Origin: Actinomycetes bacterium
GTDB lineage: Bacteria; Actinomycetota; Actinomycetes; Streptosporangiales; Streptosporangiaceae
NCBI GenBank assembly: GCA_021792855.1
Contig: JAJYTW010000015.1
Coordinates: 1-38,480, forward strand
Length of the DNA stretch: 38,480 nucleotides
Direction of reading: 5' to 3'
This document shows, in pieces, positions 25,057 through 38,480 of this stretch (the first letter of the stretch is position 1; each line of letters opens with the position of its first letter). The notes under the pieces were generated by a model. It did not search any database. It saw only the letters and a list, made by a program, of their open reading frames with translations, and had not been told where the DNA came from. The translations under genes were made by a program, and so were the position numbers.

Positions 25057-26196
25057 GTGCGCTCATCCCATTCGGCCCGCCGATTCTCCCGGTTCCGCCT
25101 TGCCGCGCCGCTCGCCGCGGCCACGACCCTGGCGGCCGGACTGGCGGCTGCCAGCCCCGCCCAGGCAGTGACGGCCCCGCCGGGCGGACCGACCAGCCTG
25201 CGGATGCCCGGACAGCTTTCCGGTGTCGCGGCCATCTCCGCCCGCGATGTCTGGGCCGTGGGCTTCACGCTGGACAACGCCAGGTCGCGGAGCCTGATCG
25301 CGCACTGGAACGGCCGCACGTGGTCGCGGATCGTCGGCCCGGCAAGCACGTATCTGGGCGCGGTCGCGGCCACCTCCGCGCGCGACGCCTGGGCGGTCGG
25401 CGGATCGGCCACCAGAAGCGTCATCGAGCACTGGAACGGCCGGGCCTGGGCCGTCACGGCCAGCCCGAATCCGGGTTCCAGCACCAGCCTGTACGGCGTG
25501 GCCGCCACCGCCGCCAGCGACGCCTGGGCGGTGGGCAGCTACGACGTGACCAGCGGCAGCAGGAGCCTGATCGCGCACTGGGACGGGACGTCCTGGCGGC
25601 GGGTCGCCAGCCCGAGCCCCACTCCGAGCACATTCCTGTACGGGGTGGCAGCCACCCCGGCCGGCGGGGCCTGGGCGGTCGGCGGCGCGACCATGACCAA
25701 GAACCGCACCGAGCCGGTCGTCGCGAGCTGGAACGGCCGGGCCTGGACCGAGGCCCGGGTCCCCAACCCGGGCACGGCCGGGAGCATGCTCTTCGCCGTG
25801 GTCGCCACCTCCGGCCGCAACGTCTGGGCGGTCGGATTCTCGCTCACGAAGTCATTCGTTCAGCGGCCGCTGATCCTGCACTGGAACGGCGCGCGGTGGC
25901 AGCAGTCGGCCGCTCCGGGCAGCACCCGCGGCTGCCAGCTCATCGGCGTCACCGCGCTACCCGGCGGCCATGCCTGGGCAGTCGGCAACTGCGGCGACAA
26001 GACACTGATCCTGCGCTGGAACGGCCGTGCCTGGGCCAGGGTCGCCAGCCCCGACCCCCGCCGCCACGGCAACGACCTGCAGGCTGTGGCTGCCACCTCG
26101 GCAAGCATCGCCTGGGCGGTCGGTGCCACCGGCAACCACTCCGGTGGCACCAGCTACACCCTGGTCGCGCGCTGGAACGGCCGGGCCTGGAGCTAA
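25057..26196 (+). CDS. Secreted seven-repeat beta-propeller protein
   Basis: The 379-residue protein has a Sec signal peptide (residues 1-37, ending SPAQA) with Arg-rich start. The mature part consists of seven repeats of about 45-50 residues. Each has an AWAVG or VWAVG core (DVWAVGF, DAWAVGG, DAWAVGS, GAWAVGG, NVWAVGF, HAWAVGN, IAWAVGA) and a WNGRAW-type segment (seven copies), often followed by VASPNP-like turns. Seven units predict a closed seven-bladed propeller, probably a binding scaffold in the envelope or medium. The GTG at 25057 is preferred: AAGAAGGG lies about 8 nt upstream and the signal peptide follows at once, whereas the frame opened at 24952 adds an unrelated tail. Its stop overlaps the convergent carotenoid oxygenase stop. 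The ligand is unknown. Confidence 0.85.
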   Translation: MRSSHSARRFSRFRLAAPLAAATTLAAGLAAASPAQAVTAPPGGPTSLRMPGQLSGVAAISARDVWAVGFTLDNARSRSLIAHWNGRTWSRIVGPASTYLGAVAATSARDAWAVGGSATRSVIEHWNGRAWAVTASPNPGSSTSLYGVAATAASDAWAVGSYDVTSGSRSLIAHWDGTSWRRVASPSPTPSTFLYGVAATPAGGAWAVGGATMTKNRTEPVVASWNGRAWTEARVPNPGTAGSMLFAVVATSGRNVWAVGFSLTKSFVQRPLILHWNGARWQQSAAPGSTRGCQLIGVTALPGGHAWAVGNCGDKTLILRWNGRAWARVASPDPRRHGNDLQAVAATSASIAWAVGATGNHSGGTSYTLVARWNGRAWS

Positions 26197-27659
26197 GGCC
26201 GCCGGGCGAACCAGTTCGCGTGCAGGCCGTTGGGGACCGTGGCCGGGATCGCGATCCTGGCCCGCGGCGGACAGGGAAAGTCGGCGGCATCCCAGACATA
26301 GAGCCACGAGTGATCGTCGGCCACGGATCTGGCCAGGGTCATGTAGTAGCCGTCAAGTTCCCCGGACGCACCGTTCCGGGGCACGAAGACCACCTCGCCG
26401 ATCGACGCGTCGGTGTCCCAGGCCTCGCTGCGTCCGGTCGACATGTCCCACCGGACCAGACGATCGTGCTCTCCCCTGGCCAGGTCGTGCTTGCCGGACG
26501 CCGCGCCCACGGTCAGGTACCGGTGACGGCGCCCGGTCAGCCGGTCATCGATGCGCGGGAACTCGCTGGGGTGATCGCCCACCGAGGTCACGGTCGCCGC
26601 GCCGCGAGCCGGGTCGATGGAGACCCGGGTGAACTGACCGGCAACCGGGGTCCGCTGGTCGCCCGCGGCACGGCGATCGCCGGCCGCGAGCGACAGGCCG
26701 CTCCACGACGGGAAGTCGGCCACCACCCGGTCGCCGTCCTCGTAGGCGTTGGCGAAATGCCAGACCCAGAATGGGTCGAGTTCGACCGTGCTGACCGGCC
26801 CGTCTCCCGCGCGCGGCACCAGCACGATCCTGGTGCCCAGGTCGGGTTGCCATTGCAGCATGCTGCCGCCGGCCAGCATCGCGTTCACGTCCAGCACGGC
26901 CGGGCCGATCACGAACACCGCGTAGTGCTCGGTGATCGTGAAGTCATGGATCATGAAGGCCTTGTCGATGCCGGGCACTGCCGAGGGCGGGCGCGTCACC
27001 GAGCCATCCGGGCCGACGATGGCCCAGGTCAGGAAGGGCTCCTCGATGTCGTAGCGAAACACCACCATCTCGCCAGTGACTGGGTCGATCCGCGGGTGCG
27101 CGCACATCCCCAGCGGCAGGCCGCCGCCGAAGTCGAACCGGCCGATGGTCTGAAGTTCCGGGCTGACCTCGTAGGGCGGGGTGCCTTCCTCCAGAGCCAG
27201 GAAGCGATCGGCGTGACGGACGATATTGATGAACGCGTCCAGTTTGGTAGGCCAGCCGGGATCCGGATCTGGCCCGAGCAGATTCTGGTCGACGAACGCC
27301 GGGGTCATGATGCCCCCGTACAGCGCGCGTCCGGCCCGGTCCTCGGCCCGCAGTCCGTTCGTCCAGACCCACCGGTTGCGATAGCGGGCCTTCCCCCCGC
27401 CGATCCACACCGCGTGGATCATGCCGTCGCCCTCCAGTGGGTAGGTATAGCTGCCCAGCGGCGGGAACTTGGGATTGGGACCGTTGCGCATGAACACGCC
27501 ATCGATGTCCGCGGGGATCGTGCCCTCGACCCGCAGGTCGTCGGCGTCGGTCTCCCGGTCGACCGGGGCGAACCGCCCCGACAGGTACGGGCTGCTAGCC
27601 GGATTCACCGGCCGCAACCGATTCTGAGCGGTGTCAGCCAAGGTCAGCCCCCTTGCCAT
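26193..27659 (-). CDS. Carotenoid cleavage oxygenase family protein
   Basis: The 488-residue protein belongs to the RPE65/carotenoid oxygenase family, which cleaves double bonds in apocarotenoids, stilbenes or related compounds with a non-haem iron held by four histidines. The ligands are visible as His188 (CAHPRID), His238 (MIHDFTIT), His301 (VWHFANAYE) and His480 (GLHANWF). The N-terminal GVFMRNGPNPKFPPLGSY and GDGMIHAV are typical. No signal peptide is present. The ATG at 27659 lacks a ribosome site; a TTG at 27641 has AAGGGGG six nt before it and would shorten the protein by six residues. No carotenoid synthesis genes lie in the window, so the substrate cannot be told. Confidence 0.92.
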   Translation of the reverse strand: MARGLTLADTAQNRLRPVNPASSPYLSGRFAPVDRETDADDLRVEGTIPADIDGVFMRNGPNPKFPPLGSYTYPLEGDGMIHAVWIGGGKARYRNRWVWTNGLRAEDRAGRALYGGIMTPAFVDQNLLGPDPDPGWPTKLDAFINIVRHADRFLALEEGTPPYEVSPELQTIGRFDFGGGLPLGMCAHPRIDPVTGEMVVFRYDIEEPFLTWAIVGPDGSVTRPPSAVPGIDKAFMIHDFTITEHYAVFVIGPAVLDVNAMLAGGSMLQWQPDLGTRIVLVPRAGDGPVSTVELDPFWVWHFANAYEDGDRVVADFPSWSGLSLAAGDRRAAGDQRTPVAGQFTRVSIDPARGAATVTSVGDHPSEFPRIDDRLTGRRHRYLTVGAASGKHDLARGEHDRLVRWDMSTGRSEAWDTDASIGEVVFVPRNGASGELDGYYMTLARSVADDHSWLYVWDAADFPCPPRARIAIPATVPNGLHANWFARRP

Positions 27660-36779: not shown

Positions 36780-38480
36780 ATGTTCGAGCGACTTCTGCGG
36801 GGCGGTGCCACCGTTGTCATCGGGGTGCTGGGTCTGGCTGTACCGATAGCCCATGCTCAGGTGACCGCCCAGTCCAACGGCGTTCCGGGCGCGCAGACGA
36901 TAAACCTGCACGCCGATTATCAGCGGGCACTACCCACCGCGAAGGCCGGCCAGCCATCCGGCGTTGTCTACCCACTTGGACACGGGCCGGCTTCTGCTGC
37001 CGCAGCTGCGAACCGGTGCCCATCTGGCACCGGCATCGAGCCGAACTGCCAGCTCCAGTACAACGGCGGAAAGGTCCAGACCAACCCGCAGATCTACCTG
37101 CTGCTGTGGGGCCCGAAGTGGTCCACCAGCGCCGAGCGCGGCAGCGCGACGTATCTGGAGAGCTTCTACCAGGGCCTCGGGATGCAGCCGAGCGACACCT
37201 GGTCGGCAACCACGTCCCAGTACACCGGTACTAATGGCCTGCCGGTGTTCGGTACCTCGACACAGTTCATGGGCACCTATAACGACACCTCGACCCCACC
37301 GTACGGGGTGACCGATAGCCAGCTGGCCGCCGAAGCCGATGCCTTCGCCAGAGATCACGGACTGACCGGCAACCTGAACGCACAGGTCATCGTGGCCACG
37401 CAGGAAGGTACCTGCCCGCAGGGGTTCTACGCGCCGACCTGCGACAAGGGCCACGGCTACTACTGCGCCTGGCACACCAACACCCCGAACACCGGCGTGA
37501 CCTTTACTAACCTGCCCTACCTGCTGCAGTCGGGGTACGCCTGCGGAGAGAACTTTCTCAACAGCACCAGTCGGGGTAAGTACGACGGGCTAAGCATGGT
37601 CGGAGGTCACGAGTACGCAGAGACGATCACCGACCCGGTCCCTGATACCGGTTGGATTGACCGTAGCGACAACGTCTCCGGTGGCGAGATCGGCGACAAG
37701 TGCGCATGGGGCGGCACAAGCTGGGGCAGCCAGGATCCGTTCGGCAACGTGACGCTGCCCACCGGAACGTTCGCGATGCAGTCGCTGTGGAGCAACACAG
37801 CTGGCAAGTGCGTGATGAAGCCAACGGCGCCGGACCAGGTGAGCCCTATCAACCTGGCTACGCAGACCGCCAAGACCGGTGACGCCTATTCGCTGGCAGT
37901 GCACGCGAAGTCGAGCACGGGCGCACCCCTCGGGTATCGTGCAACCGGGCTGCCACCTGGCCTGTCGATGAATACGACCACCGGCAAGATCAGTGGGACC
38001 CCTCTCATGGTCATCGCCACTCTCGTCACCGTGAGCGCAGGGGACACGACCGGCGCAATGCAGTCAGCGACGTTCCAGCTGACCGTGGTCGCCGGCAAGG
38101 ACACGGTGTACGTCACCAACCCCGGGTACCAGCTAGACCGGGCCAATCAGAGTGTGAGCTTGCAGATCGCGGGCTACTCCAGCACCGGCAAGAAGCTGAC
38201 CTATCGCGCGACGGCGCTGCCCCCAGGACTATCGATCAGCAGCACCACCGGCCTGATCAGCGGTCGCCTGAAAATGCTCGCAACCACGTTTGTCAAGCAA
38301 GTCACCGTGACCGCTACCGATAGTGCGGGCAAGCAATACACAACCAGGTTCTACTGGACTGTGTCGCCGGTGACCGGCCAGCTCCGGGGCTACCGGAACG
38401 AATGCGCCAGCGACTACCTCTACCGCAGCGCACCCGGCACCCCCGCCGTCATCGACCCCTGCAACAGCACGCTCCGCGAG
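36780..38480 (+). CDS. Large secreted multidomain protein, 3' truncated by the window
   Basis: The ATG at 36780 opens 567 codons to the window end without a stop. A signal peptide (1-26, ending IAHA) is followed by an EXORDIUM/PHI-1-like region (about 90-350): PQIYLLLWGPKW, SFYQGLG, SQYTGTNGLP, then GGHEYAETITDP with His277/Glu278/Glu281, and GEIGDKC. I recall AHELAE and EIGDxC at the same places in plant PHI-1/EXO proteins. Two putative Ig domains of He_PIG type follow (about 353-438 and 440-527; GYRATGLPPGLSMNTTTGKI and TYRATALPPGLSISSTTGLI). The last visible residues (GYRNECASDY, IDPCNST) look like the start of a ricin-type trefoil. Third codon positions use more A/T than neighbouring genes, suggesting transfer. 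No good ribosome site is seen. A metalloprotease role is only inference. Confidence 0.8.
   Translation, partial: MFERLLRGGATVVIGVLGLAVPIAHAQVTAQSNGVPGAQTINLHADYQRALPTAKAGQPSGVVYPLGHGPASAAAAANRCPSGTGIEPNCQLQYNGGKVQTNPQIYLLLWGPKWSTSAERGSATYLESFYQGLGMQPSDTWSATTSQYTGTNGLPVFGTSTQFMGTYNDTSTPPYGVTDSQLAAEADAFARDHGLTGNLNAQVIVATQEGTCPQGFYAPTCDKGHGYYCAWHTNTPNTGVTFTNLPYLLQSGYACGENFLNSTSRGKYDGLSMVGGHEYAETITDPVPDTGWIDRSDNVSGGEIGDKCAWGGTSWGSQDPFGNVTLPTGTFAMQSLWSNTAGKCVMKPTAPDQVSPINLATQTAKTGDAYSLAVHAKSSTGAPLGYRATGLPPGLSMNTTTGKISGTPLMVIATLVTVSAGDTTGAMQSATFQLTVVAGKDTVYVTNPGYQLDRANQSVSLQIAGYSSTGKKLTYRATALPPGLSISSTTGLISGRLKMLATTFVKQVTVTATDSAGKQYTTRFYWTVSPVTGQLRGYRNECASDYLYRSAPGTPAVIDPCNSTLRE

Follow-up and report, generated by a model that had tools for sequence, protein, structure and literature searches.

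A modular secreted protein of the EXORDIUM/PHI-1 superfamily in an actinomycete, with a putative metzincin-like HExxE site

The gene and its modules

The stretch of DNA analysed here (the window, 38,480 nucleotides) is an entire contig (JAJYTW010000015.1; C364) of the 4.7-Mb, 380-contig genome of an actinomycete of the Streptosporangiaceae. It carries an open reading frame at 36780-38480 (+), open at the contig end, for 567 amino acids of a secreted protein whose main domain appears, from profile comparisons, to be related to the EXORDIUM (EXO)/PHI-1 proteins of plants. The translation opens with a Sec-type signal peptide (residues 1-26; 36780-36857, +), read directly as MFERLLRGGATVVIGVLGLAVPIAHA with Q following, at an AHA-Q junction. 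Residues 27-85 (36858-37034, +) are a linker or possible propeptide at the N-terminal side, conserved in part and only in the closest relatives; the alignments of L001-L006 to the window protein begin at residues 24-41. The main domain of about 265 residues (about 85-350; 37035-37823, +), recognised from profile comparisons and a structure model, has a predicted metzincin-like fold. It contains His232 of a CxxH motif (YCAWH; 37473-37475, +), the HExxExxxD motif H277-E278-YA-E281-TIT-D285 (37608-37634, +) on a predicted active-site helix, and the GEIGDKC segment (residues 302-308; 37683-37703, +) with the invariant E303, D306 and C308. HEYAE (277-281) lies within GGHEYAETITDP (residues 275-286).

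Two immunoglobulin (Ig)-like He_PIG repeats follow, the first with approximate limits taken from the alignment (37836-38099, +) and the second at residues 444-529 (38109-38366, +); they are related to the repeats of a staphylococcal adhesin chain (4m03). The protein then breaks off 38 residues into a ricin-type beta-trefoil lectin (residues 530-567; 38367-38480, +), recognised by alignment and from paralogues. This tail alone gave no match to Pfam Ricin_B_lectin (PF00652), and it aligns at 53% identity to a stand-alone Ricin_B_lectin open reading frame on contig C188, a small one located at L088:1411-1881. A sequence-only reading of this DNA had claimed the signal peptide, HEYAE (with H277, E278 and E281 so numbered) and GEIGDKC, two tandem He_PIG domains and a probable trefoil. 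The signal peptide and both motifs are visible in the translation, the repeats were confirmed by Pfam (PF05345, two stretches, E = 3.4e-22, 79.1 bits against a cut-off of 24), and the trefoil gains support from paralogues that carry Ricin_B_lectin.

The truncation of the gene is technical, an assembly break at a repeat, because contig C222 ends with the very 127 bases (C222:14779-14905; L084) that close the window (38354-38480, +), within a paralogous gene whose product is 60% identical to the window protein in the main domain. An exactly shared 127-base end is a typical product of a short-read assembler with k = 127 at a repeat. The lectin segment common to the two paralogues appears recently duplicated or gene-converted. 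There are five copies of the Phi_1-like domain in the genome, and a complete paralogue on contig C95 has this domain, He_PIG and then a full Ricin_B_lectin (8.9e-17). L003, from an independent genome, likewise ends in Ricin_B_lectin (1.3e-16), and these two are the closest complete architectures. Since the open reading frame runs into a repeat where the contig stops, its chimeric look could be taken for the result of an assembly error fusing unrelated genes, but the same order of modules in the C95 paralogue and L003, together with the Phi_1-like and He_PIG combination in L001 and L013, in essence refutes this explanation, to which we give almost no credence.

Kinship with EXO/PHI-1 proteins and the conserved core

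A direct match to Pfam Phi_1 (PF04674), the check suggested with the sequence-only reading, was not found for the window protein at E <= 10, nor was there one elsewhere in its genome. Residues from about 85 to 350 had no match in Pfam or NCBIfam, and the family profile of the domain, searched against PDB sequences, returned no solved relative. The link was established through the family profile instead. Genuine bacterial Phi_1 proteins, retrieved from genomes with PF04674, were matched by the window-family hidden Markov model (HMM) at E-values of 1.9e-55 to 3.6e-12, with the search space set to 1e6 sequences and zero matches among reversed sequences used as controls. Alignment of the window-family and Phi_1 profiles with hhalign gave a probability of 100 (E = 1.3e-51 and 3.5e-52) over 247-251 columns, that is, the whole domain. 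Phi_1 was reached by 19 of the 93 window-family domains in hmmscan (best 3e-6), one member (L019/L098; 26.7 bits) passing the Pfam cut-off of 25 bits, and all eight PF04674-matching genomes of a class sample were also found by the window-family profile. Partial Phi_1 matches such as L095 (profile positions 171-234) cover the HExxE-to-EIGDKC segment, which indicates that the Pfam profile shares this core. These profile comparisons, in which plant EXO is represented by PF04674 only, show the window domain to be a remote homologue of bacterial Phi_1 proteins, and the resemblance to PHI-1/EXO first noticed by eye thus proved real.

In a maximum-likelihood tree, a fully supported branch (100/100) separates the 27 Phi_1-positive rows from the clade of the window protein, with a few rows, mostly of Chloroflexota, on the Phi_1 side. 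Judged from profile homology and this split, the window family belongs to the same superfamily as Phi_1 and constitutes a separate subfamily over several phyla. The homology with EXO/PHI-1 extends across a domain of about 260 residues, both groups are secreted, and invariant C-x-x-H, HExxE, (S/T)D, W and E..DxC elements are common to them. The window protein differs in its Pfam score below the cut-off, its subfamily and its additional modules (He_PIG and ricin lectin); plant EXO, a protein of about 300 residues, consists almost entirely of the conserved region (PMC2661892).

Conservation was counted over the 93 window-family domains and 27 Phi_1 domains. In the window family, H277 and E278 are each kept in 92 of 93 domains and E281 and D285 in all of them, the x positions of HExxExxxD being freely variable; Cys229, His232, Cys255, Trp292, Glu303, Asp306, Cys308 and Gln334 are likewise present in 93/93. 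All 27 Phi_1 domains have HExxE-xx-(S/T)D and keep the equivalents of the CxxH His, W292, E303, D306 and C308. The conservation of HExxExxxD is far above chance. A lack of conservation of HEYAE among homologues would have spoken against the sequence-only reading, and the motif is instead invariant or nearly so; the absence of a classical HExxH, also remarked there, agrees with the HExxExxxD of the family. The sole exception at H277 and E278 is a QDLTE sequence in L039:1837-2655, a diverging copy beside an intact one and a candidate pseudo-enzyme.

Distribution, base composition and surroundings

The bacterial and archaeal species genomes scanned yielded 80 loci related to the window domain, in Actinomycetota, Acidobacteriota, Eremiobacterota, Pseudomonadota and Chloroflexota. 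The majority come from metagenome-assembled genomes, and the cultured hosts are Kitasatospora, Streptomyces, Streptacidiphilus, Actinocrinis and Trebonia, with L013 belonging to Kitasatospora aureofaciens and L005 to Trebonia kvetii. The distribution is patchy, since the domain occurs in 23 of the 297 genomes of the class sample and, among the genomes listed for the window's own taxonomic family, in none but that of the window itself. Ricin lectin, He_PIG and fungal-lectin-type domains recur among the relatives. Five loci from metagenome-assembled genomes labelled Acidobacteriota and Gammaproteobacteria (L058, L066, L068, L069 and L070) encode proteins of about 700 amino acids with a tandem pair of Phi_1-like domains and HExxE in each. 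A Phi_1 tandem of four genes lies at G803:C1:227321-232230 (L112, L117-L119), in the same class as L019 (Acidobacteriia). L100 (G493:C34) exceeds 800 residues and combines a Phi_1 domain bearing CGYHYFT and HELIEAETDP with repeats that look fibronectin-like; judged by eye, we take this segment to be the most plant-EXO-like seen.

The window gene has a guanine-plus-cytosine (GC) content of 64%, against 72% for the window, and a GC content at third codon positions of 0.81, against 0.88-0.92 in most neighbours checked. The divergent codon use noted in the sequence-only reading is supported in part only: the lower GC looks like a family trait, because the C95 paralogue also stands at 64%, and this shared value leaves codon use a weak argument for foreign origin. 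No conserved gene neighbourhood was found around the relatives, among which the arginyl-tRNA synthetase and two-component system neighbours do not recur. The window also encodes an RPE65/carotenoid-oxygenase family protein at 26193-27659 (-; PF03055, E = 4.9e-112).

Predicted fold and possible function

The AlphaFold2 model of the window domain, built from a 93-row alignment, reached a predicted local distance difference test (pLDDT) score of 93.1 and a predicted template modelling score of 0.92. In it, the motif falls on a helix (194-209, counting from residue 76) that follows elements in the order strand-helix-strand-helix-strand. In a Foldseek search against the PDB, the 50 listed best matches were metalloproteases and nearly all metzincins (best E = 8.5e-3), classed by description or known entry identity (CpaA in 6o38, snake-venom metalloproteases, fragilysin, TACE). 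For a second AlphaFold model, built independently on a set of Phi_1 proteins (pLDDT 89.7), the high-ranking matches were ADAMTS4 (probability 0.99), a fibrinolytic metalloproteinase of snake venom (0.96) and archaemetzincin (0.84), together with ulilysin, TACE and ADAM10 (best E = 8.9e-3). About 40 of the best 50 matches of this model were metzincins, although PDB rows often repeat one protein (TACE), so that such match counts overstate independence. A search of a viral structure library gave nothing relevant. As two models agree across several metzincin families, the Phi_1-type domain likely adopts the fold of a metzincin metallopeptidase, in which the HEYAE helix would stand where metzincins have their HExxH helix. 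Conservation and these two rankings support the metal site suspected in the sequence-only reading.

Metzincins of the ADAM/adamalysin, TACE, ADAMTS, fragilysin and archaemetzincin types, the best structural neighbours of both models, carry their HE helix at the corresponding place, and their motif is HExxHxxGxxH/D where the window family has HExxExxxD. The CLCA_X/CLCA metalloproteases, compared by motif only, have the consensus HExxHxxxD (PMC3650047), with the spacing of HExxExxxD and a His in place of the Glu as second metal ligand; a metal-binding role has been suggested for their Asp (PMC3650047). CLCA1 was considered as a precedent for HExxE, which is the motif given in one report (HEXXE; PMC6851300), and was dropped, the family analysis giving HExxHxxxGxxDEY (PMC3650047).

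We consider it about an even bet (probability near 0.5) that the window protein is a secreted, modular, glycan-anchored member of the EXO/PHI-1 superfamily acting as a metzincin-like metallohydrolase with a Glu-substituted HExxE site. The signal peptide would direct export; His277 and Glu281, aided by Asp285 and/or His232, would bind a divalent metal such as zinc, and Glu278 would serve as general base, while E303, D306 and the cysteines may shape or stabilise the site. The enzyme would cleave a glycoprotein of the wall or the extracellular space at a peptide or glycopeptide bond, and the lectin may tether the enzyme to this substrate. Signal peptides, trefoils and Ig repeats typically serve for secretion, glycan binding and spacing, respectively. 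We favour a wall or extracellular glycoprotein as substrate, because a lectin is present and plant EXO resides in the apoplast in association with the cell wall (PMC2661892). The unusual wall effector envisaged in the sequence-only reading is still a conjecture. Several points weigh against this interpretation. All members have a Glu where HExxH has its second His, and the HExxHxxGxxH motif is absent; each structural match is non-significant, with template modelling (TM) scores of 0.2-0.45. To our knowledge no EXO/PHI-1 protein has a known biochemical activity, and our search of the open literature for a structure or enzyme activity of this family found none.

The same replacement of the second His would also be consistent with a pseudo-enzyme, in which a zincin-derived fold uses the HExxExxxD cluster to bind calcium or only to stabilise its core, the protein being a non-catalytic, lectin-held adhesin or glycan-binding signal. 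Substituted, probably inactive zincins are common (PMC3650047), the repeated Ig and lectin modules would suit an adhesin, and plant EXO mediates growth and sugar responses without a known reaction. However, His277 and Glu278, the equivalent of the general base, are kept at the frequencies given above across several phyla, and pseudo-enzymes often lose such residues, an argument that falls short of proof; we hold the pseudo-enzyme to be rather unlikely. Foldseek E-values above 0.008, the low TM-scores and a few glycosidase chains (3sur, 3gh7) among the weak matches of the second model would fit an extracellular hydrolase or binding protein of non-zincin fold, whose acidic cluster forms a carboxylate catalytic pair acting, for example, on wall polysaccharide, the metzincin ranking then reflecting a shared strand-helix order only. 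Yet metzincins of several families top the rankings of both independent models, and the HE lies on the matching helix in the order of secondary structure; we consider a non-zincin fold improbable.

In plants, EXO/PHI-1 proteins govern how cells expand and respond to sugar (PMC2661892, PMC3691544), and as of 2009 bacterial homologues had been recorded from one species, Solibacter (PMC2661892). We came across no account of the large modular branch, of the lectin fusions or of the metzincin-like reading in the open literature that we searched, which took in neither subscription papers nor preprints. More tentatively than for the window protein itself, and at clearly less than even odds, the whole EXO/PHI-1 superfamily, plant growth regulators included, may be an unrecognised lineage of secreted metzincin-like metallohydrolases whose HExxExxxD metal site bears the Glu substitution, and of this lineage soil bacteria would hold a large, modular, lectin-fused branch. 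With its invariant HExxExxxD core and predicted metzincin-like fold, the bacterial branch, broad and tractable, makes EXORDIUM function testable as metal binding and hydrolysis, and the small soluble domains of relatives from cultured Streptomyces and Kitasatospora could be used for crystallography.
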